DNA of 27,219 bases, taken from positions 1 to 27,219 of IMG/VR virus record IMGVR_UViG_3300042542_004689; one strand, 5' to 3'. A model generated the notes under the pieces. The model ran no database searches and was not told where the DNA came from. It saw nothing but the letters and a program-made list of their open reading frames with translations. Below are positions 6,974 to 27,014 of the stretch, in pieces. The translations under genes were made by a program, and so were the position numbers. The DNA is from a virus. Within the stretch, counting starts at the first letter, position 1; each line of letters opens with the position of its first letter.

Positions 6974-7440
6974 TGCAGATCGCGATTGGTACTTATATTA
7001 ACTTCAGATTGTTCGCCGGTGCTGATACGGGTTACGCCTTCCAGAACTTCCACACAAATGCGACACGTAGCTATGGAGGAGTGAACTATATCTACGCTGG
7101 TTTTGGATTTAGCGGCACAAGTATCGACTTACAGGGTAGTTCCATCGAGGCTCAGCTAGTGTTTGCTGTTAGCGATCTGCTGCTGTCTTTTATTCAGCAG
7201 GCTGCTGATGATCGGTGGATCCTCCGAGTGCGGACAGTTTGGTTAAACCCTGACTCACTGGTGGAAACCTCCACCTTCATGGAGGAAATTTATCAAGTCA
7301 ATGGTTTTCAGCATGATGGTAGCCGCTTAAGTCTCAAGCTGGGTAGTCCGTTAGATGCTGTTAAAAGTCATATTCCAAAACGGACTCTTAGACAAGAACT
7401 TGTTGGTTCTCTACCTTCCTCGGGGCAGATTAACTTCTGA
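6973..7440 (+). CDS. Lambda gpL-like / DUF1833-like minor tail protein
   Basis: A 155-residue protein between the tape measure and the J-like protein, the place taken by M, L, K and I in lambda. It is mostly beta-rich. The C-terminal part reads LSLKLGSPLDAVKSHIPKR, matching the pattern of distal tail proteins of the gpL/DUF1833/DUF2163 type, in which a PLD motif is followed by an I/VPxR motif. The cysteines that bind the Fe-S cluster in lambda gpL are absent here, so only the beta-structured base is inferred. It probably links the tube end to the tip. The start overlaps the upstream stop (TAATG) and the stop overlaps the downstream start (TGATG), so all three genes are likely translationally coupled. 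The family call comes from position and a short motif. Confidence 0.75.
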   Translation: MQIAIGTYINFRLFAGADTGYAFQNFHTNATRSYGGVNYIYAGFGFSGTSIDLQGSSIEAQLVFAVSDLLLSFIQQAADDRWILRVRTVWLNPDSLVETSTFMEEIYQVNGFQHDGSRLSLKLGSPLDAVKSHIPKRTLRQELVGSLPSSGQINF

Positions 7441-10400
7441 TGTCATTAACCCCTTACAAAGGTCATATTGTCCTTCTCCCTGAAGACAGGGAGCTCATTG
7501 ATGTCTTAGGTATCACTGAGGAGGAGTACCGCTCCTTTGTTCGAGAGGCGATGAAGCGCTCTCGGATTGAACCAGGGAAACCGCAGGCGCTACTCCTCAT
7601 ACCTTTTGTTGCAAATCTTGTTATAGGTCTTGCCCTTAGCTATGTAGGCAATCTTCTCGCCCCTAAGAACACAGGGGGCAAGGGACCGAATATCCGACAG
7701 ACCCAGAAGCAGGGTCAAAATATTGTAAGCCAAACAGAATTTGCCCCTAAAGTTGGCTTTGATTCACTACAGAACGTAGTAGAACTCGGCTCAAGTGTTC
7801 CCGTCATTTATGCAAAGAGGGAAGTCATCAATGGTTTTACATACGGTGGAGTACGTGTTAATACAAACCTCGTTTGGTCCCAGATGCAATCCTATGGAGG
7901 TAACCAACTCTTTAGGGCAATCTTCTTAATTGGTGAAGGAGCTATCGGCGCTCTTGACCCAACTCAATTCGCTTTTGGTGATAATACGATTAACGGCTAC
8001 GATTTAGGACTAGGTAATTCTTCCAATAGTAGAGTTACCTTTTATCAGAAAACCAACGGCGGTCGCATCACAAGCGCTGATCGCATAGCGGGCCGAACAG
8101 CAGATAAAGATCCAGGTAACGCCCAGAACCAGGGAGCACCTGATGTCTTCCATGTGCAGAGTATAAATAATGAATGGAGACCCGACTTTTGCTATTCATA
8201 CAAACCGGCCACTCAAACGCAATTCGGTGTCTATTCACCTATTGGTGTTGGCTTAGGCTACCGAATTAACCCCAGTATGCGTCCCGCTGTCGCAGTGCGG
8301 ACAGTCCCCGAGGGCGATAAAGGAAAAGTCAAATTACAATGTGATAAAGATGGTGTAGCACTAGCGCAGCGTAACAAGTACAATACTAAGTTCAAATCAC
8401 GTAGCGGTATCATCCGTATTAATGGAGTCAACTTCAACAATGATGACGGAGAAACTAGAACACTAAATGTAAACGATACTGTTACTTACTTCCTTGAACG
8501 TAGGAGCGATGCACGGCGTGAATTTAGAGGTGGGCAACCTGGCAATGACCACAAAGAGACTTGTAATGATGTTGCTCAAGCAGTTGCAAGCCGTCAGAAG
8601 AACTGGGACGACTCCTGTTCTATCGGGGATCTCTACAAGCTCGGGACTGCTCAACTGATATGCGAATCACGCTCTCCCATTGATGAAGTCTTCTCCTCCG
8701 AGGTCGATCAGGACCCGATCGGCGGCGGACAAGACATGGCGGTCACCTTCCGTGTCGTCAAAAGCGGCATAGCCGAACTTACCAGCCTTTCTGGAGTTGG
8801 CACAGGCACTTCAAGATCACATCTCTTGAAACTGTCTATCTGTGCTTTTACTTTATCAAGGGCTACTCAAGTTATCGAACTAGGCTTCAAAAGCACCCTC
8901 GGTATCCGCATCAATGGCTTATGTAATTTTAAAGATGCGATCAGTCATAGAGAAATCGACGGCAGAGCATGCGAACACTACAGAAATAGAGTATTCGGCA
9001 AGGGGCAGAGCCTAGGACTGAGCAATTATTCCTCCGGATCCTTTTCAGGATCAGAGCGCCGCTACTCCTTTTTCCGTATTGGTTACCGTGTAGCAGGCAG
9101 CACCGACGCTTATATCTACATGAGTCAGTGCTTCGGTTTTGCCGGAGTAACGCAACAGAACCAATTCAACTATATCCGCCTTCAAATGCCCAGATTTGAA
9201 GTCTGGGAGTTCAAGATAGAACCCTTATCAGGTTGGGAAATACGTTCTAACCAGGCTACAGGATCATTAGAAGTTCTTGATGCGAAGATTAGTCAAACCA
9301 GAACTGTGTGGTCTTCTGACGTTGGCGCTACATTCAATGGACGGGCCATAAGCCGGGAAAGAAAGACCTTTCAAATGGCCTGTACGAGAGATCGTAATCT
9401 AGGTGTTGAGAAGCAGGATACACGAGATTATGCAGACGATTGGGGTAAGTTAGCCGAAGCCTTCGTTTATGACGAGATCCAAAGCTCAGCTCGCACTCCT
9501 GAGCATGAATTAGCGTACATCAATATTATTACACCTAATACTGTAACGCCTACTTATGATAATCTAGCGCTTATTGGCATGAATATTCGGAGTAGTACCG
9601 AATTTTCACAGCTGAAACAGCTTTCCGTTTACGTTACTAGCGGCTTAGGAGGATACCACACTTTCCCACAAGTCCTACAAGATCTCTTATCTAACTCGCG
9701 CTACGGTCTCGGTGCGACCCTAAGTGCAGAACAGATCGACAATGATCTACTGCTGTCGGCTACATCGTGGACATACTCTCGCCGCTACTTCTGGGATGGC
9801 GCTCTCCCCGAGCCCGTCAACATCCGGCAGTGGGCCAGCACTACAGCACCCCATTTCCTACTCGAATTTGTAATCAAAAATGGTAAGTTTGCTTTACAAC
9901 CTGCCGTTTATTTTAATCAGCCGGAAGTAATAACTAATCTATTCACAAGTGGAAATATTCTGGAAGACTCTTTTGAATTTTCTTATGCTGATACGGAAGA
10001 ACGTATACCGAAACGAGTTTCTGTAAAGTGGCGACACGAAAGACCGGCGAATACAAATGATTCAGCTGGGATTTTCCCATTAATCCGTGAAATTAATATC
10101 CGTGAGGTAGGCACGCCCGCTGATGCTCCGCTAGAAACCCTCGATTTAACCGATTTCTGTACCAATCAGGAACATGCAATAGATGTTGCAAAATACATTT
10201 GTAGAGTTTCTCGTCTTGTTACACACTCGGTATCTTTTAAGACTGTCCCAACAGAAGCCGGCCTGGAAATCGGTAGATGTTTCAAGCTAGGCCTTGAAAC
10301 AGTCAATTATGCACAACCTAATAACGGTGCTATAAGTTCTGACGGGACGATTACAAGTATAGATCCGATTTCTAATGGTACTTATGATGTACTACTGTGG

Positions 10401-13400
10401 AATGGCACTACAAATGCGATTCAGCAGGTTCAGCTTAATGTAGTTAATGGAAAGGCGACGAATTTCTCAAACGCTGTCTTCTGTATAAAAACTGCTACAG
10501 TATCTACTGTAGCCTACAAAGTTCAATCACTTTCTTTTGACGAGGAAGGGAATCTGCAAGTAGAAGCTTCTGTCTTCCCTCTTAAATCAAATGATTACAG
10601 CTTAATTACCGAAGGTTGGGAAGTCCCAGGAAACTGGATTATAGAAGGCGAAATTGCCGGAGGAGAAACAGACGCATTTGAAGAAGCCTTCTTCGATGGC
10701 GTTAACATCCTTGGTCCCAGCTCTTTAACCAAGAATGTAGCCAATGAGTACACTGCTTTAATCAGCGGAACCGTTGGGGTTTACACGTACCAATGGTCTA
10801 CAACCAACTCTGGCGTCACTTTTAGCGCCCCTACAGCAGCGACTACACAAATTACAGCCGCGAATGAAGGTAATGTGCAAATACAGGTTACGGTTGCACA
10901 AATCCTGCCTGGGGGAACTGGGAATACAGTAACGCAGACCAAAACAATAGAAGTTCTAGGTGCGAATACACTTCTTAACCTTATTGGAGATGTAGAGATT
11001 AAAGGGCCCGCTACTGTTGGGACAGACATACCTGCTGTTTATACTGTCGAATACACAGGACAGTCCACGCCTATCAGTAGTACTTCTATTCAGGTTGGGG
11101 GGTCTTACCAGATACGAAGTATAGGTACTACGAATTTCACTTTAATCGGCGCACCTAGCAATACGGTAGGCACAGTATTCACAGCCACGAATGTCGGGAC
11201 GGGCACTGGAAGCGTAACCGATCTCGATGATGTCTTCATTTCATGGAATTGGGATTCCACAAACTTAGGCGCAGATGTAGACATCACCGAGTCCGGCGCT
11301 CCGATAACAGGTGTCACGTTCCTTGCGGGTGGAACATACAATCTCAGAGTTACTCTTAGCTCAGCGACAGCCGCTGATAGCCCTAAAACAGCAACTTTGT
11401 CTGTTGTTGTTGATGCCCCGACTATCACTGTAGTCGCGACAGATCCTGATGCGAATGAAGTAACACCGCCAGCGGTTGCAGATGGTGGGCTTTTTACTTT
11501 AACTCGCACAGGACCAACAACAAATCCATTAACTGTAACTGTAGCCCTAACCGGAACGGCTATAAATGGCATCGATTACACTCATTCTTTACTGACTAAC
11601 GCGCCATCTGCTGGTTACAAAGTTGTATTCCAAGCAGGGTCTGCCACAAGTCTGATTCCTATCACCATAACTCCAGACGCCCTCACAGAAGCACCTGAGA
11701 CAATTACATTAGAAATAGTCAGTGATCTGGGCTACGAATCGGGTACTCCTTCTAGTGCAACCATAGTTATAAGAGAAAAGGCTGGACCTAATCAAGTCTT
11801 TGCAGGACCTTCTACAGGGATAGACTCTGCTCCACCGTCCTTCAGACAATTAACTACTAATGATTTACCTAGTATAGGCACTGCGGGCACTTACACCAAA
11901 GTCACTACAGACTTAAAAGGCCGCGTTATTTCGGGTTCTAATCCTACAACCCTCGAAGGATACGGAATCACAGATACATATACTTCAGAATATATAGACG
12001 CTATGGTGCAAGGGCTAAAGCCTAAGCAACTTGTACGAGTCGCTACGACAACAAATATCACGCTATCGGGGGCGCAGACTGTTGATACTGTCACTACTTT
12101 AGCTGCAGGCGACCGTGTCCTGGTAAAAGACCAGACTAATAAATCTCAGAATGGCTTTTACAACTACAATCCAGCAGGAGCATGGACGCGCACAGCGGAC
12201 TTTGATGAATGGTCAGAAGTCCCAAATGCTTATGTATTTGTTAGAGAAGGTCTGGTCAATGCGGGCGATAGTTTTGTCTGTATAAGTGGCAGCAATTTGT
12301 TTGGTGCTAGTGAAATAGGCTCTTCAGATATTGAATTTATCTTATTCAGTACTGCTCTTGAGGTATTTGTTTCAACAGGCCTTAATAAAATAGGAAACAC
12401 TATATCTCTGGCCAATACCTCTGTTACTGCAAATAACTACGGAAGCGCTTCTCAAGTTGCGACATTCACTGTCGATGCGCAAGGACGCCTCACTGCTGCA
12501 GCGAATGTCGCTCTAGGTATCGGTACGGTTGCCAATAAGCCAATTATTACAGGCACCGGCGGAGCTTTGGTCGCAGGATCTTTTGGCACAACAGCTAATA
12601 CTTTTTGTGAAGGTAACGACAGTCGTCTGTTAACTGCTGGAACAGTAACCAGCGTGGGACTATCACTCCCCACGAGCCTGTTCCAAGTAACCGGCAGTCC
12701 CGTAATTTCAAGTGGTGATCTCACCGCTACTCTTTCGCCTCAGAGTCCTAATCGAGTATTCGCAGGCCCCGCTGCGGGCGGTTTAAATTTTGCGCCTGTT
12801 TTTAGAGCGTTAGTAGCTGCTGACTTACCGGATTCTGGAGTTGTTGACGGGAATTATGGAAGTGCGAATGCTGTTCCTACAGTTACTTTAGATAAAAAAG
12901 GTAGAATTGTTTCTATTGTTAATACACCTATTGCCATTAGCAATACTGCTATTACTGGATTAGGTACTGCCTCCACGAGGAACGTTCCAGCAAGTGGCAA
13001 TGCCGCAGATACTGAAGTCGTTCTCGGGGGCGATAGCCGGTTGAGCGACGCTAGAGCGCCGTTGTATGGGAATCAGAATCCGAATCTGGTACTCGCTGGA
13101 CCATCTGCTGGTACTACTGCAGGAACACCAACGTTCAGAGTTTTAGTAGCTACTGATATACCAACACACAACCAAGATGCTTCAACTATAACCAGTGGAA
13201 CACTCAGTTCAGCAAGACTACCTGCTTTTACAGGAGATGCTACCAGTACATCCGGTACGTCAGCTCTTACTCTTTCTAACACAGGTGTTACAGCCGGTAC
13301 CTACAATTCTTCTACATCAATTACACCTTTTACAGTAGATGCTAAAGGCAGACTAACATCTGTCGGTACAGCAGTAACCATTACTCCAGCCTTTAGCTCT

Positions 13401-16400
13401 ATCACTAACAAGCCTACAACCCTTAGTGGTTACGGTATTACAGATGCACTGTCAAACGGTAATCAGAATCCAAATCTGGTACTCGCTGGCCCTTCCACTG
13501 GCAGTACTGCAGGACCACCAACTTTCAGAGCTTTAGTAGCTACTGATATACCAACACACAACCAAGATGCTTCAACTATAACCAGTGGAACACTCAACGC
13601 ACTGAGACTACCTGCTTTTACAGGAGATGCTACCAGTACATCCGGTACGTCTGCTCTTACTCTTTCTAACTCAGGTGTTACAGCCGGTACTTACAATTCT
13701 TCCACATCAATTACACCTTTTACAGTAGATGCTAAAGGTAGACTAACATCTGTCGGTACAGCAGTAACCATTGCTCCAGCCTTTAGCTCCATCACTAACA
13801 AGCCTACAACCCTTAGTGGTTACGGTATTACAGATGCACTGTCAAACGGTAATCAAAATCCAAATCTGGTACTCGCTGGCCCTTCCACTGGCAGTACTGC
13901 AGGAACACCAACTTTTAGAGCTTTAGTAGCTACTGATATACCAAACATAGATGCTACAAAAATAACCAGTGGAACACTCAGTTCAGCAAGACTACCTGCT
14001 TTTACAGGAGATGCTACCAGTACATCCGGTACGTCAGCTCTTACTCTTTCTAACTCAGGTGTTGTAGCCGGTACCTACAACTCTTCCACAGAAATCAGAC
14101 CTTTTACAGTAGATGCTAAAGGCAGACTAACATCTGTCGGTACAGCAGTAACCATTGCCCCAGCCTTCAGCTCTATCACTAACAAGCCTACAACCCTTAG
14201 TGGTTACGGTATTACAGATGCACTGTCAAACGGTAATCAAAATCCAAATCTGGTACTCGCTGGACCATCTACTGGCAGTACTGCAGGAACACCAACTTTC
14301 AGAGCTTTAGTTGCTACTGATATACCAACACACAACCAAGATGCTTCAACTATAACCAGTGGAACACTCAGTTCAGCAAGACTACCTGCTTTTACAGGAG
14401 ATGCTACCAGTACATCCGGTACGTCAGCTCTTACTCTTTCTAACTCAGGTGTTGTAGCCGGTACCTACAACTCTTCCACAGAAATCAGACCTTTTACAGT
14501 AGATGCTAAAGGCAGACTAACATCTGTCGGTACAGCAGTAACCATTGCCCCAGCCTTCAGCTCTATCACTAACAAGCCTACAACCCTTAGTGGTTACGGT
14601 ATTACAGATGCACTGTCAAACGGTAATCAAAATCCAAATCTGGTACTCGCTGGCCCTTCCACTGGCAGTACTGCAGGAACACCAACTTTTAGAGCTTTAG
14701 TAGCTACTGATATACCAAGCATAGATGCTACAAAAATAACCAGTGGAACACTCAACGCACTGAGACTACCTGCTTTTACAGGAGATGCTACCAGTACATC
14801 CGGTACGTCTGCTCTTACTCTTTCTAACTCAGGTGTTACAGCCGGTACTTACAATTCTTCCACATCAATTACACCTTTTACAGTAGATGCTAAAGGTAGA
14901 CTAACATCTGTCGGTACAGCAGTAACCATTGCTCCAGCCTTTAGCTCCATCACTAACAAGCCTACAACCCTTAGTGGTTACGGTATTACAGATGCACTGT
15001 CAAACGGTAATCAAAATCCAAATCTGGTACTCGCTGGCCCTTCCACTGGCAGTACTGCAGGAACACCAACTTTCAGAGCTTTAGTAGCTACTGATATACC
15101 AAACATAGATGCTACAAAAATAAACAGTGGAACACTCAGTTCAGCAAGACTACCTGCTTTTACAGGAGATGCTACCAGTACATCCGGTACGTCAGCTCTT
15201 ACTCTTTCTAATTCAGGTGTTGTAGCCGGTACCTACAATTCTTCCACAGAAATCAGACCTTTTACAGTAGATACTAAAGGCAGACTAACATCTGTCGGTA
15301 CAGCAGTAACCATTGCTCCAGCCTTTAGCTCCATCACTAACAAGCCTACAACCCTTAGTGGTTACGGTATTACTGATGCACTGTCGAACGGTAATCAGAA
15401 CCCGAATCTAGTACTCGCTGGTCCTTCCACTGGCAGTACTGCAGGTACACCAACTTTCAGAGCTTTAGTTGCTACTGATATACCAACACACAACCAAGAT
15501 GCTTCAACTATAAACAGTGGAACACTCAGTTCAGCAAGACTACCTGCTTTTACAGGAGATGCTACCAGTACATCCGGTACGTCAGCTCTTACTCTTTCTA
15601 ATTCAGGTGTTGTAGCCGGTACCTACAATTCTTCCACAGAAATCAGACCTTTTACAGTAGATACTAAGGGCAGACTAACATCTGTCGGTACAGCAGTAAC
15701 CATTGCTCCAGCCTTTAGCTCCATCACTAACAAGCCTACAACCCTTAGTGGTTACGGCATTACAGATGCACTAGCCTCCAACAGTGACCGACTAACCCCT
15801 TCTGGTGCCATCACTCAATTCGCTGGCGCGACACCCCCGGCTGGCTGGCTTAAGTGCAATGGTGACACCATACCCAATGGAACTGGCACAGTTCAAGGCG
15901 TCACTGCTAATTTTGCACCACTATATGCAGTCCTACAAAATACCTACGGCGCATTCGGTAAACTGCCCGACCTCCGTGGTGAATTCATCCGAGGCTGGGA
16001 CGATGGTCGTGGCGTGGACAGTGGACGGGGACGCGGCACGTCACAAAGCGGACAGCTGGAGCAGCATGCTCACAGCATGAATCACGGGCACACGATTACA
16101 GACAATGGCCACGTTCATGCAGTCACCGACAATGGCCATAGTCATTCAGTCACCGACCCTGGCCATAGTCATAATATACAGCTATATAACACCGCTAATC
16201 AAATTATTTATGATGCCAACGGAGTCAACTTTTGGAATACTGTAGGTGAGAATACTCCTCAAAGTACCTCCGGTATCACAAGCTTCATACGAGGAACAGA
16301 GGCACTGCGGAGATTCTTGGCCCTTAAAGGTGCCGGTTCTGGCATTTCCATCAATACCAGCGGCACCGGTATTTCCATCGCTAACAGCGGCACCAGTATC

Positions 16401-16505
16401 TCGGTCAACGGCATGACCGGCAGTACAGGCACAGCAGGAGGAGCGACAGGCGCAGACGCCAACAGGCCGCGCAACATTGCGATGCTAGTCATTATCAAAA
16501 TATGA
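7440..16505 (+). CDS. Giant J-like tail tip attachment protein fused to a repeat-rich receptor-binding fibre
   Basis: A 3021-residue protein, much longer than lambda J (about 1130). Visible order: N-terminal helical part with one hydrophobic segment at about 50-74; conserved tip/baseplate core to about residue 1080 (GFDSLQNVVELGS, RAIFLIGEGAIG); Ig/PKD-like domain 1087-1173; a second Ig-like domain 1182-1325 interrupted by a module with GTTNFTLIGAPSNTVG; Calx-beta-like domain about 1329-1448; a fibre beta module about 1525-1617 (GDRVLVKDQTNKSQNGFY); two divergent FAGP...FR(A/Q)L units; seven near-identical units of 128-130 residues (about 1878-2781); phage tail collar domain 2784-2856 (PAGWLKCNGD, LPDLRGEFIRGWD); five HxH motifs at about 2872-2913; and the collar-fibre ending RPRNIAMLVIIKI. 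I infer a trimeric central fibre that both closes the tail and binds the receptor. No frameshift is seen across the 9 kb. Confidence 0.93.
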   Translation: MSLTPYKGHIVLLPEDRELIDVLGITEEEYRSFVREAMKRSRIEPGKPQALLLIPFVANLVIGLALSYVGNLLAPKNTGGKGPNIRQTQKQGQNIVSQTEFAPKVGFDSLQNVVELGSSVPVIYAKREVINGFTYGGVRVNTNLVWSQMQSYGGNQLFRAIFLIGEGAIGALDPTQFAFGDNTINGYDLGLGNSSNSRVTFYQKTNGGRITSADRIAGRTADKDPGNAQNQGAPDVFHVQSINNEWRPDFCYSYKPATQTQFGVYSPIGVGLGYRINPSMRPAVAVRTVPEGDKGKVKLQCDKDGVALAQRNKYNTKFKSRSGIIRINGVNFNNDDGETRTLNVNDTVTYFLERRSDARREFRGGQPGNDHKETCNDVAQAVASRQKNWDDSCSIGDLYKLGTAQLICESRSPIDEVFSSEVDQDPIGGGQDMAVTFRVVKSGIAELTSLSGVGTGTSRSHLLKLSICAFTLSRATQVIELGFKSTLGIRINGLCNFKDAISHREIDGRACEHYRNRVFGKGQSLGLSNYSSGSFSGSERRYSFFRIGYRVAGSTDAYIYMSQCFGFAGVTQQNQFNYIRLQMPRFEVWEFKIEPLSGWEIRSNQATGSLEVLDAKISQTRTVWSSDVGATFNGRAISRERKTFQMACTRDRNLGVEKQDTRDYADDWGKLAEAFVYDEIQSSARTPEHELAYINIITPNTVTPTYDNLALIGMNIRSSTEFSQLKQLSVYVTSGLGGYHTFPQVLQDLLSNSRYGLGATLSAEQIDNDLLLSATSWTYSRRYFWDGALPEPVNIRQWASTTAPHFLLEFVIKNGKFALQPAVYFNQPEVITNLFTSGNILEDSFEFSYADTEERIPKRVSVKWRHERPANTNDSAGIFPLIREINIREVGTPADAPLETLDLTDFCTNQEHAIDVAKYICRVSRLVTHSVSFKTVPTEAGLEIGRCFKLGLETVNYAQPNNGAISSDGTITSIDPISNGTYDVLLWNGTTNAIQQVQLNVVNGKATNFSNAVFCIKTATVSTVAYKVQSLSFDEEGNLQVEASVFPLKSNDYSLITEGWEVPGNWIIEGEIAGGETDAFEEAFFDGVNILGPSSLTKNVANEYTALISGTVGVYTYQWSTTNSGVTFSAPTAATTQITAANEGNVQIQVTVAQILPGGTGNTVTQTKTIEVLGANTLLNLIGDVEIKGPATVGTDIPAVYTVEYTGQSTPISSTSIQVGGSYQIRSIGTTNFTLIGAPSNTVGTVFTATNVGTGTGSVTDLDDVFISWNWDSTNLGADVDITESGAPITGVTFLAGGTYNLRVTLSSATAADSPKTATLSVVVDAPTITVVATDPDANEVTPPAVADGGLFTLTRTGPTTNPLTVTVALTGTAINGIDYTHSLLTNAPSAGYKVVFQAGSATSLIPITITPDALTEAPETITLEIVSDLGYESGTPSSATIVIREKAGPNQVFAGPSTGIDSAPPSFRQLTTNDLPSIGTAGTYTKVTTDLKGRVISGSNPTTLEGYGITDTYTSEYIDAMVQGLKPKQLVRVATTTNITLSGAQTVDTVTTLAAGDRVLVKDQTNKSQNGFYNYNPAGAWTRTADFDEWSEVPNAYVFVREGLVNAGDSFVCISGSNLFGASEIGSSDIEFILFSTALEVFVSTGLNKIGNTISLANTSVTANNYGSASQVATFTVDAQGRLTAAANVALGIGTVANKPIITGTGGALVAGSFGTTANTFCEGNDSRLLTAGTVTSVGLSLPTSLFQVTGSPVISSGDLTATLSPQSPNRVFAGPAAGGLNFAPVFRALVAADLPDSGVVDGNYGSANAVPTVTLDKKGRIVSIVNTPIAISNTAITGLGTASTRNVPASGNAADTEVVLGGDSRLSDARAPLYGNQNPNLVLAGPSAGTTAGTPTFRVLVATDIPTHNQDASTITSGTLSSARLPAFTGDATSTSGTSALTLSNTGVTAGTYNSSTSITPFTVDAKGRLTSVGTAVTITPAFSSITNKPTTLSGYGITDALSNGNQNPNLVLAGPSTGSTAGPPTFRALVATDIPTHNQDASTITSGTLNALRLPAFTGDATSTSGTSALTLSNSGVTAGTYNSSTSITPFTVDAKGRLTSVGTAVTIAPAFSSITNKPTTLSGYGITDALSNGNQNPNLVLAGPSTGSTAGTPTFRALVATDIPNIDATKITSGTLSSARLPAFTGDATSTSGTSALTLSNSGVVAGTYNSSTEIRPFTVDAKGRLTSVGTAVTIAPAFSSITNKPTTLSGYGITDALSNGNQNPNLVLAGPSTGSTAGTPTFRALVATDIPTHNQDASTITSGTLSSARLPAFTGDATSTSGTSALTLSNSGVVAGTYNSSTEIRPFTVDAKGRLTSVGTAVTIAPAFSSITNKPTTLSGYGITDALSNGNQNPNLVLAGPSTGSTAGTPTFRALVATDIPSIDATKITSGTLNALRLPAFTGDATSTSGTSALTLSNSGVTAGTYNSSTSITPFTVDAKGRLTSVGTAVTIAPAFSSITNKPTTLSGYGITDALSNGNQNPNLVLAGPSTGSTAGTPTFRALVATDIPNIDATKINSGTLSSARLPAFTGDATSTSGTSALTLSNSGVVAGTYNSSTEIRPFTVDTKGRLTSVGTAVTIAPAFSSITNKPTTLSGYGITDALSNGNQNPNLVLAGPSTGSTAGTPTFRALVATDIPTHNQDASTINSGTLSSARLPAFTGDATSTSGTSALTLSNSGVVAGTYNSSTEIRPFTVDTKGRLTSVGTAVTIAPAFSSITNKPTTLSGYGITDALASNSDRLTPSGAITQFAGATPPAGWLKCNGDTIPNGTGTVQGVTANFAPLYAVLQNTYGAFGKLPDLRGEFIRGWDDGRGVDSGRGRGTSQSGQLEQHAHSMNHGHTITDNGHVHAVTDNGHSHSVTDPGHSHNIQLYNTANQIIYDANGVNFWNTVGENTPQSTSGITSFIRGTEALRRFLALKGAGSGISINTSGTGISIANSGTSISVNGMTGSTGTAGGATGADANRPRNIAMLVIIKI
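13071..15783 (+). repeat. Seven tandem ~384-390 bp coding repeats in the J-like fibre
   Basis: Units begin at the anchor NQNPNLVLAGPS at 13071, 13461, 13851, 14235, 14625, 15009 and 15393, giving spacings of 390, 390, 384, 390, 384 and 384, with a last unit of about 390 bases. The two lengths reflect two alternative cassettes: THNQDAST (130-residue units) or N/SIDATK (128-residue units). Two more two-state sites are SSA/NAL before RLPAFTGD, and VTAG...TSITP/VVAG...TEIRP. Units are nearly identical at DNA level and all stay in frame. Less conserved relatives lie upstream at about 11786-11970 and 12748-12960. The repeats should form the fibre shaft. Confidence 0.95.
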
Positions 16506-23450: not shown

Positions 23451-23536
23451 TCATGAACTGGTCGGCTACCATCGTTTGGTGTTGGAGAGCACAGCGCAAC
23501 TGCCCCTCCTCGGATCACCCGCATAACCGAGTAACC

Positions 23537-23935
23537 ATGACCATTGAACCAGAACAGTGGCGTCCTGTCATCGGCTGGGAAGCGCAATACGAAGTGAGCG
23601 ACCTGGGACGGGTGCGGAGTTTGGACAGACTCATCCCGGCGGTGAACCGTGACGGCAGCCGACGGATGAACCGTCTCAAAGGACAGCTTCTTAAGGGCAC
23701 ACCTGACCGCGACGGTTACTTAAAGGTCAACCTACGTAACGGAACAGGAGCTGTGAGCACTCGAATGATCCACACCCTGGTGCTAGAGGCCTGGATAGGC
23801 CCCCGGCCCCTCAAGCACGACGTTTGTCACGGTGCTGGTGGCACCTCTGACAACAGCCTGGCAAATCTCCGGTACGACACCCGTTCGGCCAACGAGGCGG
23901 ACAAGAGACGGTGGCCCCAGAGACGCTCTGCTTAA
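23537..23935 (+). CDS. NUMOD4/HNH homing-type endonuclease
   Basis: A 132-residue protein. The frame is open back to ATG 23453, but ATG 23537 is preferred because the NUMOD4 DNA-binding motif begins right after it (EQWRPVIGWEAQYEVSDLGR) and the extra 28 residues look non-coding. The C-terminal half carries an HNH_3-type nuclease: H79 (IHTLVLEAW), H98 (VCHGAGG), N106 and N110 (LANLRYDT). Free-standing enzymes of this type nick or cut DNA near their own insertion site and spread between phages. No intron or inteln-like partner is visible. It lies between the L,D-transpeptidase and the putative att site. The GC-rich codon use differs from the tail genes, consistent with a mobile gene. Confidence 0.87.
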   Translation: MTIEPEQWRPVIGWEAQYEVSDLGRVRSLDRLIPAVNRDGSRRMNRLKGQLLKGTPDRDGYLKVNLRNGTGAVSTRMIHTLVLEAWIGPRPLKHDVCHGAGGTSDNSLANLRYDTRSANEADKRRWPQRRSA

Positions 23936-23962
23936 ATGACCCCATCAAAGGGGGCCTCCACC

Positions 23963-23984
23963 ATGCCAGTTTTAAGCCAACCCC
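23963..23984 (+). repeat. Duplicated integrase 5' end or arm-type site, copy 1
   Basis: ATGCCAGTTTTAAGCCAACC plus CC matches 20 of 22 bases of the integrase start region at 24193-24214. It encodes the same MPxLSQ beginning, and then reads through into the tRNA fragment and stops at TAG 24032-24034. It is either a remnant of an integrase 5' end or a pair of integrase arm-binding sites. Confidence 0.6.
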
Positions 23985-24011
23985 AGGAGACCACCCCCCA
24001 AGATCCCAGTT

Positions 24012-24054
24012 CGGGGCGTAGCGCAGCTTGGTAGCGCACCACTTTGGGGTAGTG
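24012..24054 (+). other. attP: Putative attP core: 5' half of tRNA-Pro(GGG)
   Basis: The sequence folds as the 5' half of a proline tRNA. It has acceptor strand CGGGGCG, TA, a D arm with GCGC stems around AGCTTGGTA, then anticodon stem CCACT, loop TTGGGGT (anticodon GGG) and AGTG. Pairing of the anticodon stem fails at the next base (A instead of the expected G), and no T arm or acceptor 3' strand follows, so it is not a working tRNA gene. A tRNA fragment beside a tyrosine integrase is the classic sign of attP. Crossover within or near the anticodon loop is inferred. Confidence 0.8.
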
Positions 24055-24084
24055 ATTGCCCCTTGACAATCCACTAGACTCTAA

Positions 24085-24126
24085 GCCCTGACTGCCACTC
24101 AAAACGCAGTCAGGGCTTTTGTTTTT
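24085..24126 (+). terminator. Strong rho-independent terminator between attP and integrase
   Basis: A perfect 11-bp stem, GCCCTGACTGC (24085-24095) with GCAGTCAGGGC (24106-24116), 10-base loop, followed by TTTTGTTTTT. It would stop rightward transcription entering from the att site or the HNH gene before it reaches the integrase. Confidence 0.88.
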
Positions 24127-24152
24127 CGAGGAAACGGGTTCGACTCTTTAAG

Positions 24153-24176
24153 CCTACGTAGGTCTGTTTAGGCCTA
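24153..24176. promoter_or_regulatory. Palindromic operator-like cluster upstream of the integrase
   Basis: A perfect 10-bp palindrome, CCTACGTAGG (24153-24162), is followed by GTTTAGGCCTA (24166-24176), which contains the perfect palindrome TAGGCCTA. The second element ends 16 bases before the integrase start and recurs upstream of the next gene. This is a likely binding site for a repressor, an excisionase or the integrase itself. Confidence 0.5.
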
Positions 24177-24192
24177 TCTACACCACAGTTTT

Positions 24193-25242
24193 ATGCCAGA
24201 TTTAAGCCAAGCCCCCGAGCTCGTGGGCGCCAATGCCCGCCTGAAAGCATCCAAGCTGAAATGCTCCATTCAGCAGCGCGGTAGTTCCTACGTACTGATC
24301 GCCACCTTGCCTCTGCGCGACGGTTCAGGACGCAAGCAACAGCGCATCAACCTGGGATCGCTCACAGTTATGGAGGCAGAACGCAAGGCCCTCGAACTCG
24401 GACATCAGCTCCGCTCACACTCATTCGACTGGCATCTCTGGGAAGGTCCAAAGACCCTCGCCGCCATTTCAGATGCCGACTTTCACGCAGCTGCAGTCCG
24501 CCTCCACGCCACCAAATACCGCCACTCCCCCGAGCGCGGCTCCACTGCCTGGGCCAAGAAATGGGCCCCAGCCCTCCGCAAGCTGCCCCAGGGCCCTGTT
24601 ACCGAAGCGATCCTCCTCCGCACTGTGCGGCGCCTCCCTGATGGCTCTGCAGCCCGCCGCGATCAGGGAAACATCCTGGCCCAGGTGGCTCGTTCCCTGG
24701 GGATTCCCGACGCCGCCCTGCTGGCAGCCTGCCGGGGCTACGGGGCAGCCTCCCTGCGTCCCCGGGACATCCCCTCCGATCCCGAGATCGAAGCCGCCTG
24801 GAGCTCCCTGCGCCTTCCGCACTGGCGATGGACCTGGGGCATGTGCGCCGCCTACGGCCTGAGGCCCCACGAGTGCGCAGAGCTCACCTGGCTGGATGAC
24901 GATTGGATTGAAATCGCGGATGCCACGAAGACCGGCTCCCGGCGTGTGACCCCCTGCCCAAGTGCCTGGGTGCAGCTCTGGGGCCTGCGGGAGCTGCAGC
25001 GGCCTACCCAGTCTTCACAAACCTTAAGCAAAGCTTTCGCTGATGCTCTCACCCGAGACCGCGTCAGCACCAAGCCGTACTCTTTGCGTCACGCCTACGC
25101 CCTCAGGTTGCTGAGCAGGGGCGTCTCTGCAGATCTGGCTGCCCGCCTGATGGGCCACAGCCTGGCCGTCCATCAGCAGACCTACCAGCGGTGGATCGAA
25201 GCTGACCGGATTCAGAAAGCTATGCAAGGCTGTTCGCTTTAG
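24193..25242 (+). CDS. int: Tyrosine recombinase (phage integrase)
   Basis: A 349-residue site-specific recombinase that would insert the phage at the host proline tRNA gene. The C-terminal catalytic domain shows R224 (AYGLRPHE), K246 (ATKTGS), R299 in YSLRHAYALRL, H322 (LMGHS) and nucleophile Y331 (QQTYQRW). The first histidine of the usual HxxR box is replaced by Y296 (YSLR). The N-terminal ~190 residues should hold the arm- and core-binding domains. The gene starts 66 bases after the terminator and has no obvious Shine-Dalgarno. Codon use is far more GC-rich than in the tail genes, suggesting a different origin or closer fit to the host. The first codons are nearly duplicated upstream at 23963. 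Regulation through the palindromes just before the start is inferred. Confidence 0.93.
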   Translation: MPDLSQAPELVGANARLKASKLKCSIQQRGSSYVLIATLPLRDGSGRKQQRINLGSLTVMEAERKALELGHQLRSHSFDWHLWEGPKTLAAISDADFHAAAVRLHATKYRHSPERGSTAWAKKWAPALRKLPQGPVTEAILLRTVRRLPDGSAARRDQGNILAQVARSLGIPDAALLAACRGYGAASLRPRDIPSDPEIEAAWSSLRLPHWRWTWGMCAAYGLRPHECAELTWLDDDWIEIADATKTGSRRVTPCPSAWVQLWGLRELQRPTQSSQTLSKAFADALTRDRVSTKPYSLRHAYALRLLSRGVSADLAARLMGHSLAVHQQTYQRWIEADRIQKAMQGCSL

Positions 25243-25244
25243 GG

Positions 25245-25268
25245 TATAGTTCAACCAGTTTAGGCCTA
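25245..25268 (+). promoter_or_regulatory. Promoter -10 candidate with operator-like GTTTAGGCCTA
   Basis: TATAGT at 25245-25250 is a plausible -10 with no good -35. The element GTTTAGGCCTA at 25258-25268 is identical to that before the integrase and sits 19 bases before the start of the downstream gene, so bound protein could block initiation. Confidence 0.4.
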
Positions 25269-25287: not shown

Positions 25288-25590
25288 ATGCCACTGAGCC
25301 TGTTGCCCGATGCCGACGAGCGTTCCGAGCTGTTGTATCGCCTCACACGTATTGAGGCTGTACTAGACAGCCTGGTGCGAGCCCAAGAAAAACATTCCGA
25401 ATGGATTGATTCTGAAGCGTTCTGCAAACAAGTCGGAATCGCTCCAAAGCAACTGACTTATTACATGTCAAAGGGGACACCGGGCGGTGATGCAGTACGG
25501 AACATCGGCACGGTTGCGCGGCCTCGGTATCGGTTCCATCGCGTGAAGGCCGTTGACCAGTTCCTGAATAGGGGTCTGCATAACCGATAA
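25288..25590 (+). CDS. Small DNA-binding protein, excisionase candidate
   Basis: A 100-residue protein 45 bases after the integrase, same strand. After a charged N-terminal helix, residues about 43-94 look like a small helix-turn-helix/winged domain: WIDSEAFCKQVGIAPKQL, then YYMSKGTP, a basic strand pair (RPRYRFHRVKAVDQFL). This fold type is shared by excisionases and MerR-like regulators. Position next to the integrase, size and basic charge favour a recombination directionality factor or a regulator of lysogeny. No known excisionase family was matched with confidence. It shares its upstream 11-mer with the integrase gene, so the two are probably co-regulated. It converges with the minus-strand operon, 26 bases away. 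Confidence 0.65.
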   Translation: MPLSLLPDADERSELLYRLTRIEAVLDSLVRAQEKHSEWIDSEAFCKQVGIAPKQLTYYMSKGTPGGDAVRNIGTVARPRYRFHRVKAVDQFLNRGLHNR

Positions 25591-26408: not shown

Positions 26409-26598
26409 TGCTTTTACCTACATTTGTACTACGTGTGTACTGCGCTAAACGGGCTGAAGCCCGCGCTCGCTTTTTACCCAAGTTCCAATCGTAAAAGAAC
26501 TGAGCATCATCAACGAGGCGGACTAACAACCCGTTTGGCAGCTTACGAGCTATTACAGTTAAGCGGTGCAATAGCTCGTTTCTGTGATCAACGCTCAC
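26395..26598 (-). CDS. Small unknown protein between cyAbrB and dcd
   Basis: A 67-residue basic protein. The start overlaps the cyAbrB-like stop by four bases (ATGA) and its end overlaps the dcd start by 14 bases, strong evidence for a translated operon member. It is mostly helical, with a leucine-rich first part (ELLHRLTVIARKLPNGLLVRLVDDAQFF), then a basic stretch (GKKRARASAR). It could bind nucleic acid, but no family was recognised. Confidence 0.65.
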   Translation of the reverse strand: MSVDHRNELLHRLTVIARKLPNGLLVRLVDDAQFFYDWNLGKKRARASARLAQYTRSTNVGKSNASE

Positions 26599-27014
26599 GC
26601 AGCAACGGCTTCGAGTTCCGCTTCTTTTTTCTTGAACCGGCCCTTGGAATCCCGAGGCTCGACTTCAGCCGCCCGTTGGAGGAGCACTACCCGAACTTCG
26701 CCAGGAGAGACAACAATCTGCAGTTTGTCACCGGGATCGAAGCCTGCGTCCTCTGTGTAGGTCTTGCCCAGCAGCATCACACCATTCGTGTGAACAGTTG
26801 TGACATACTGTGCTGCTTTGCCCCTGTTCCGATTCGGATCAGCACCGACTTTCAGATCCTTAGCAGCGAGCAGCTGCGTCATGAAGCTCTTCTTCAGCAC
26901 TTGCGGCTTTCCTGAAGTGGTCGTCCGCACGTACCCAGCTCCGCTAGCTAAGTCAGTTTCAGAAATGCCAGGGTTGGCTTGGACAAATGAAACCAGTTCG
27001 TCGCCTGTCAGCAT
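26595..27014 (-). CDS. cyAbrB-like transcriptional regulator
   Basis: A 139-residue protein with the layout of cyanobacterial AbrB (cyAbrB) proteins: an N-terminal helical region (MLTGDELVSFVQ, then a GYVR motif followed by TTTSGK), a middle KSFMTQLLAAK helix, and a C-terminal SpoVT/AbrB-type DNA-binding part at about 70-113 (YVTTVHTNGVMLLGKTY, DPGDKLQI). Host cyAbrBs are global regulators of carbon and nitrogen metabolism. An extra basic/acidic tail follows (about 120-139, SKGRFKKKEAE). It is the first gene after the polymerase in the minus-strand operon, 67 bases from it. The gap contains TTAGCCTAA (27036-27044), an inverted TTAG/CTAA resembling the integrase-side operators. Whether it controls phage or host genes is unknown. 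Confidence 0.87.
   Translation of the reverse strand: MLTGDELVSFVQANPGISETDLASGAGYVRTTTSGKPQVLKKSFMTQLLAAKDLKVGADPNRNRGKAAQYVTTVHTNGVMLLGKTYTEDAGFDPGDKLQIVVSPGEVRVVLLQRAAEVEPRDSKGRFKKKEAELEAVAA

Follow-up and report, generated by a model that had tools for sequence, protein, structure and literature searches.

Nearly all phages that target tRNA genes carry the 3΄ half of the gene, the usual reason given being that the tRNA keeps its own promoter. Among the islands identified with Islander, 159 contain a 5΄ tDNA fragment, compared with 3760 that contain a 3΄ fragment (PMC4383910), and a second paper, which cites Zhao and Williams (2002), describes 5΄-distal recombination as considerably less frequent (PMC6563490). 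After integration, bacterial target tRNAs use their original promoter, with very few exceptions (PMC8371274). Here, we analyzed a virus record of 27,219 bases (hereafter, the window), a metagenomic fragment of a probably temperate cyanophage in which a block identical to the 5΄ half of tRNA-Pro(GGG) is located just upstream of a tyrosine integrase gene (int).

Tail genes occupy the left of the window and the lysogeny region its right, the latter in the order L,D-transpeptidase-like gene (minus strand), HNH gene, tRNA fragment, terminator, int, small ORF, dCTP deaminase gene and AbrB-like regulator gene. The features of the att-int region are as follows:

23537–23935, + strand: HNH endonuclease gene (NUMOD4 + HNH_3), with a homologue at the same place in L171
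23963–23980, + strand: left (P) tandem arm-type Int sites, ATGCCAG + TTTAAGCCAA, about –72/–61 from the core, at the same offsets in nearly all relatives
23981–24011, + strand: non-coding block of 31 nt between the arm sites and the tRNA half, 94% identical between the two 5΄-half groups
24012–24054, + strand: attP identity block, tRNA-Pro(GGG) nt 1–43 (5΄ half), an exact match to host genes, with the same 43 bp in L171–L175, L183 and L164
24040–24054, + strand: attP core, CACT-TTGGGGT-AGTG
24083–24126, + strand: intrinsic terminator between core and int, with a 13-bp stem, a 10-nt loop and a T-rich tail
24147–24176, + strand: two further TTTARGCCTA sites (24147, 24167) between the terminator and int
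24193–24210, + strand: right (P΄) tandem arm-type Int sites, ATGCCAG + TTTAAGCCAA, about +138/+146 from the core, overlapping the int start codon
24193–25242, + strand: tyrosine integrase gene, 349 aa (PF00589; phrog_1)
25259–25268, + strand: fifth site, TTTAGGCCTA, before the small ORF
25288–25590, + strand: small ORF downstream of int, with DNA matches at 25444–25573 in L122, L124, L125 and L127

The HNH gene is oriented towards the tRNA half and ends 76 nt short of it. In the integrase (Int), the columns of R224, H300, the R/H motif and Y331 are invariant in the alignment with relatives, and these are probably the catalytic residues; among known phage isolates, the sole Int relative was that of PSS2 (28%). 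The small ORF had no Pfam match; relatives share a conserved portion of it downstream of their int genes, and it possibly encodes an excisionase. As for the remaining genes of the window, the AbrB-like regulator (26595–27014, minus strand) is of the cyanobacterial type (PF14250) and is encoded by the phage near its lysogeny genes, and a tail protein of 3,021 aa (7440–16505) contains several near-identical repeats in its C-terminal part (NGNQNPNLVLAGPSTGSTAGTPTFRALVATDIP...GYGITDALS).

The tRNA-Pro(GGG) 5΄ half and the crossover region

The initial annotation had interpreted the fragment as an attP made from the 5΄ half of tRNA-Pro(GGG), matching the tRNA from its first base to the end of the anticodon loop. 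Alignment to cyanobacterial tRNA-Pro(GGG) genes was exact over nt 1–43, and a pattern scan of genome contigs located nt 2–43 in at least 116 genome stretches; chance cannot explain an exact match of 43 bp. The identity does not end with the loop: it continues into the 3΄ strand of the anticodon stem and takes in AGTG, four of its five bases. Beyond nt 43, the host loci among the matches listed read GGGGTCG and continue as an intact tRNA gene, and the phage reads ATTG. ARAGORN called tRNA-Pro(ggg) on the host gene and no tRNA in the whole 27,219-base window. Matches of the 43 bp to isolate genomes were weaker and were largely complete tRNA-Pro genes of other cyanophages.

Among the close relatives in viral contigs, 21 carry the 3΄ half (from tRNA nt 28–33 to 76), seven carry nt 1–43 (L164, L171–L175 and L183), and two (L121 and L165) carry a diverged 5΄ half; since these counts include many near-copies, the number of independent phages is smaller. 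All of the phages compared share CACTTTGGGGTAGTG, except for L178 (from CTTTGGGG) and L189 (from TTGGGG), which share less. The core, which constitutes the last 15 bp of the fragment and corresponds to the anticodon stem-loop, is the sole stretch common to 5΄-half attPs, 3΄-half attPs and both ends of integrated relatives. Identity to the left of the core is present only in 5΄-half phages and identity to the right only in 3΄-half phages, and the crossover therefore falls in the anticodon stem-loop; together, the two modes narrow its position without an experiment. The 7-bp overlap is most likely 24044–24050, the anticodon loop, and the strand cuts would lie at the ends of this loop, judging from the known behaviour of such sites (PMC8371274). 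An attP at a tRNA gene is expected to combine an adjoining tyrosine recombinase gene, arm-type sites flanking the core and an identity block common to the host tRNA gene, each of which is found here, and the identity lies on the 5΄ side of the crossover, as far as tRNA nt 1, rather than on the 3΄ side. These features support the assignment of 24012–24054 as an attP of the 5΄-half type and suggest that the phage integrates at tRNA-Pro(GGG).

We then considered integrated relatives. In each of four cyanobacterial genomes, a related integrase gene adjoins an intact copy of tRNA-Pro(GGG) (L127, L138, L139, in which int is broken by stops, and L140), and a second, partial att copy was found in three of the four (G242, G005 and G028); in G242, it lies on the same contig at a distance of about 80 kb, and in G005 and G028, it lies on other contigs. 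These far copies start at CACTTTGGGGTAGTG and continue across the host 3΄ half, which indicates that the phage side carried the 3΄ half in those elements; in G005 and G028, moreover, the arm motifs of the far end match those beside the cognate int. Direct-repeat ends at the same gene are therefore found in integrated relatives, all of the 3΄-half kind. It had been proposed that prophages should be sought at this gene and that related prophages integrating elsewhere would speak against the assignment; the outcome favoured tRNA-Pro(GGG), with prophages present for related integrases and none of the 5΄-half kind. In 400 Cyanobiaceae genomes, no integrase of the 5΄ groups was present among the integrase matches, and neither a match to the P arm nor a natural 5΄-mode junction was found; a genus-level search (16 genomes) returned nothing at the set cut-off. 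All eight viral contigs with the 5΄ half contain it as an unintegrated attP.

Two further observations were made in the host genomes. The interval of about 80 kb between two tRNA-Pro(GGG) core copies (L155 and L158; G242:C1:686865-767277), with a family integrase at one end, is a large integrated element. In addition, L137 (G169:C49) encodes an integrase 53% identical to that of the window with no tRNA gene beside it, the tRNA-Pro(GGG) gene of this genome being located elsewhere; L137 is either a remnant or an integrase with another target.

The exact 5΄ half is present in two phage groups, that of the window and that of L171–L175/L183. Their left halves (HNH gene, arm sites and tRNA half) are homologous and 74% identical; the homology extends up to and including 24054, where the core ends, and the sequences to the right are unrelated until inside int. 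This pattern fits an exchange of att halves at the core, and other recombination would account for the sequences equally well. The 43 bp are identical between the groups although the neighbourhood differs by about 26%. If the 28 unchanged positions outside the core were unconstrained, the probability of such identity would be 0.74 to the 28th power, or about 2 in 10,000 under the assumption of independent sites. Unconstrained identity is thus unlikely by this estimate, and the 43 bp are probably under selection in the 5΄-half groups.

An alternative is that the 5΄ half is a relic of a formerly working attP, or of imprecise excision, in a phage that has lost integration at tRNA-Pro(GGG). The close relative L121 could be taken in this sense: its 5΄ half (L121:1592-1640) is changed at 8 of 43 positions, an identity of 81% that equals that of its surroundings, its core is altered to CACTTGAAGGTAGTG, and most of its HNH gene is lost. 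CACTTGAAGGTAGTG occurred in none of the 400 Cyanobiaceae genomes, and its other viral matches were unrelated genes; we accordingly rejected the possibility that L121 is adapted to another tRNA, and decay of the site is more likely. The lack of integrated 5΄-half prophages in the same genomes would also be expected of a relic. However, the 43 bp have remained perfect in both groups despite the divergence of the neighbouring DNA, and the core, arm sites and int of the window are intact, which makes loss of function improbable, and we continue to regard the site as a working attP. An assembly chimera of a host tRNA fragment and phage DNA, for which the metagenomic origin of the contig could be cited, can practically be dismissed: the same junctions recur in contigs of different data sets (L002 and L003 for the phage of the window, and six contigs of the second group) each time as a single copy internal to a contig (up to 72 kb in length).

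Arm-type sites and the swapped cassette

The motif TTTARGCCWA occurs five times in the window, compared with 0.38 expected, always on one strand and always in the att-int region. The motif itself varies between phages (TAAGCCAG, CGGTCCAC, TAGTCCAC, TAGTGAAC and TTAGGCAAG) and is plain to see when the phages are listed together. The offsets of the arm pairs, about –72 and –61 on the left and +137 and +148 on the right of the core, are fixed across the 18 phages compared, regardless of motif and mode, with L190 as the visible exception. The mean best left-right match was 0.84 at –61 with +125/+137, compared with 0.42 (sd 0.05) over the whole offset grid, a value that describes the fit rather than a significance test, since the offsets were chosen from the same data. 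The 5΄-half and 3΄-half phages have the same arm-site geometry, and because the arm sites stay at fixed distances while the tRNA half switches side, the placement of the half does not depend on how the recombination complex is built.

The sequence ATGCCAGNTTTAAGCCAA is present both at 23963 and at the int start codon. We considered a duplicated gene start and rejected it, given that relatives keep the sites without an ATG; the two copies are the left and right copies of the tandem arm sites. The right sites (24191–24210) overlap the int start codon, close to which they also lie in several relatives, and Int could repress its own gene by binding there.

These distances also bear on the proposal that the phage retains the fragment for the RNA made from it, namely a tRNA-like 5΄ half (e.g. 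a decoy or a processed tRNA half), with the att role being secondary. The exact start at tRNA nt 1, the co-directional gene upstream and the conserved 31-nt block before the fragment would suit such a role, although the exact 5΄ end is also explained by selection on the rebuilt tRNA. In contrast, a transcript would not account for a fragment whose end falls just beyond the Int core and is shared to the base by two groups with unrelated right-hand DNA, or for its fixed distance from the arm sites, and we regard this proposal as very improbable relative to an attP function. A separate copy of 21 nt of the 31-nt block and its left edge precedes an ATG in an unrelated viral contig (L269:904-924), where it resembles a ribosome-binding leader and where there is no tRNA half.

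We compared the window with the 3΄-half phage L122 (and its copy L123) by sliding identity and BLAST. The sequences are 88–96% identical to the left of about 23458 and 95% identical to the right of about 24490, and the intervening segment is swapped:

23459–24490, no strand assigned: cassette swapped relative to L122, comprising HNH, attP, terminator and Int residues 1 to about 99

The window cassette contains the HNH gene, the 5΄-half attP and one Int arm-binding domain, whereas that of L122 contains a TnpB-like gene, a 3΄-half attP and another Int arm-binding domain; the catalytic region of Int is nearly identical in both. The arm motif and the Int N-terminus change together between the two phages, which would be expected of a cassette that acts as a functional unit. 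At least two changes are needed to account for the 5΄ mode on the tree of integrases, although Int is mosaic, and this count therefore tracks the history of Int and not that of the left half of attP. Where the window has the HNH gene, L122 carries a TnpB/IS605 OrfB-like gene (L122:3105-4520, minus strand), and the nuclease genes beside attP might drive cassette exchange.

Predicted integration products and the terminator

According to the proposed mechanism, Int would bind the attP core in the anticodon stem-loop together with the tandem arm sites that flank it on either side, and would recombine this core with its identical counterpart in host tRNA-Pro(GGG). On the int side, integration would leave the host promoter and host 5΄ half followed by phage DNA from 24055 (truncated tRNA, terminator and int); the predicted attL is the host leader + 43 bp + ATTGCCCC. 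At the other end, the HNH side with its arm sites and phage nt 1–43 would join the host 3΄ half to give a whole tRNA-Pro(GGG) with phage DNA upstream; the predicted attR is ...GATCCCAGTTC / CGGGGCG...GTAGTG / GGGGTCG. This topology is the reverse of that expected for the 3΄-half attP of the close relatives, as the identity continues from the core in the 5΄ direction only. When the junctions were assembled in silico, ARAGORN called tRNA-Pro(GGG) on the join of the phage 5΄ half and host 3΄ half and no tRNA on the int-side junction. The initial annotation had anticipated the same outcome, with the host 5΄ half and promoter pointing towards int and the intact tRNA at the far end, and this follows from the sequence. 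The 5΄-half attP was brought into the phage background as a cassette with the matching Int arm-binding domain. We assign a probability of about 0.82 to the account as a whole, i.e. a working attP, the reversed topology and the cassette origin with a matching arm-binding domain. As predicted from the sequences, the two modes differ in the tRNA end that is rebuilt and in whose DNA precedes the rebuilt gene.

In the host leader, a TGTGNTA motif is present near –20 at 72 of 113 loci. In the P arm, including the 31-nt block, the host promoter motif TGTGATAACTT was not matched beyond shuffled sequences. The rebuilt tRNA would therefore be transcribed from elsewhere or not at all; as a guess, read-through from the co-directional upstream HNH gene could supply this transcription. 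In the hosts checked, two or three tRNA-Pro genes match the pattern used, GGG being present once in each as an intact gene, and loss of tRNA-Pro(GGG) might thus be tolerated through other isoacceptors. A more far-reaching interpretation, which we offer tentatively, is that the rebuilt tRNA-Pro(GGG) of a lysogen, having lost the host promoter, is transcribed only from the phage side, such that the prophage controls a single-copy host tRNA, and that the family switches between host-driven (3΄-half) and phage-driven (5΄-half) modes by exchanging a cassette of attP and arm-binding domain.

The stem-loop between core and int, reported earlier as perfect, is real: it contains 13 perfect pairs (24083–24095 with 24106–24118), followed by TTTTGTTTTT in a tail up to 24126, and folds far better than shuffled sequences (z –3.8 to –4.5). 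A simple terminator scan missed it only because the loop limit was 8 nt, compared with 10 nt here. The initial annotation had described a purpose-built insulator against host tRNA transcription running into the integrase gene, and selection for this specific purpose, on account of the 5΄-half mode pointing the host promoter at int, could be argued from the position of the hairpin between core and int, its strength (hairpin ΔG about –21 kcal/mol, and a T-rich tail) and a sequence that differs from the tRNA terminators of 3΄-half phages. However, a GC hairpin with a T-run is found about 62 nt after the core in all but one of the 3΄-half phages surveyed (that of L190 is weak), in which the intact tRNA stays under the host promoter, and this indicates that a terminator before int is the normal state of the family. 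Moreover, the 5΄-half phages of the L171 group (L171–L175 and L183) have no terminator between the tRNA half and int, and in L121 the T-run is interrupted. Specific selection as an insulator is accordingly unlikely. The part of the claim concerning placement stands, since, whichever half is carried, a terminator at this place would keep transcription from the host tRNA promoter out of int; the part that made it special to, or required by, the 5΄-half mode does not.

Comparison with known systems

The window shares with the usual 3΄-half tRNA attP (the anticodon-loop subsite of Islander; PMC4383910) a tyrosine integrase with arm and core sites, an anticodon-loop crossover and a phage fragment that restores the split tRNA gene, but it restores the 5΄ half, and the rebuilt tRNA hence has phage DNA upstream. 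In tRNA-dependent lysogeny of mycobacteriophages (PMC10865867), integration likewise occurs at the anticodon loop and affects host tRNA expression, and related integrases likewise differ in their treatment of the tRNA. Those phages, however, rebuild no tRNA and carry a whole one, whereas the phage of the window rebuilds the host tRNA in silico; within the 27,219-base window, a phage fragment, there is no complete cognate tRNA, and in place of a common core of about 10 bp with the tRNA not rebuilt, we found an identity of 43 bp and an in silico rebuilt tRNA. In the T7-like cyanophages P-SSP7 and S-TIP37 (PMC8776855), the integrase is likewise paired with an attP that corresponds to a tRNA gene of the host, but the tRNA is tRNA-Leu and attP lies downstream of int, unlike in the window.

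The reversed orientation was already described for elements with 5΄ tDNA fragments (PMC4383910 and PMC6563490). No account of the two modes occurring together in a single integrase family, on a conserved site geometry, was found in openly licensed papers. Here, in contrast to the described 5΄-fragment elements, the family of the window combines both modes without any difference in target gene, core or arm-site geometry, and both occur in phages that are about 95% identical outside the swapped cassette. The window and L122 thus form a natural near-matched pair with flanks of about 95% identity, the same catalytic region, target gene and core, and opposite tRNA halves, and the rule of the 3΄ half becomes testable through tRNA-Pro(GGG) expression and the cost or gain in a 5΄-half lysogen. 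The 5΄-half mode is a known rarity; the switch within one integrase family on a fixed site geometry is the new part.
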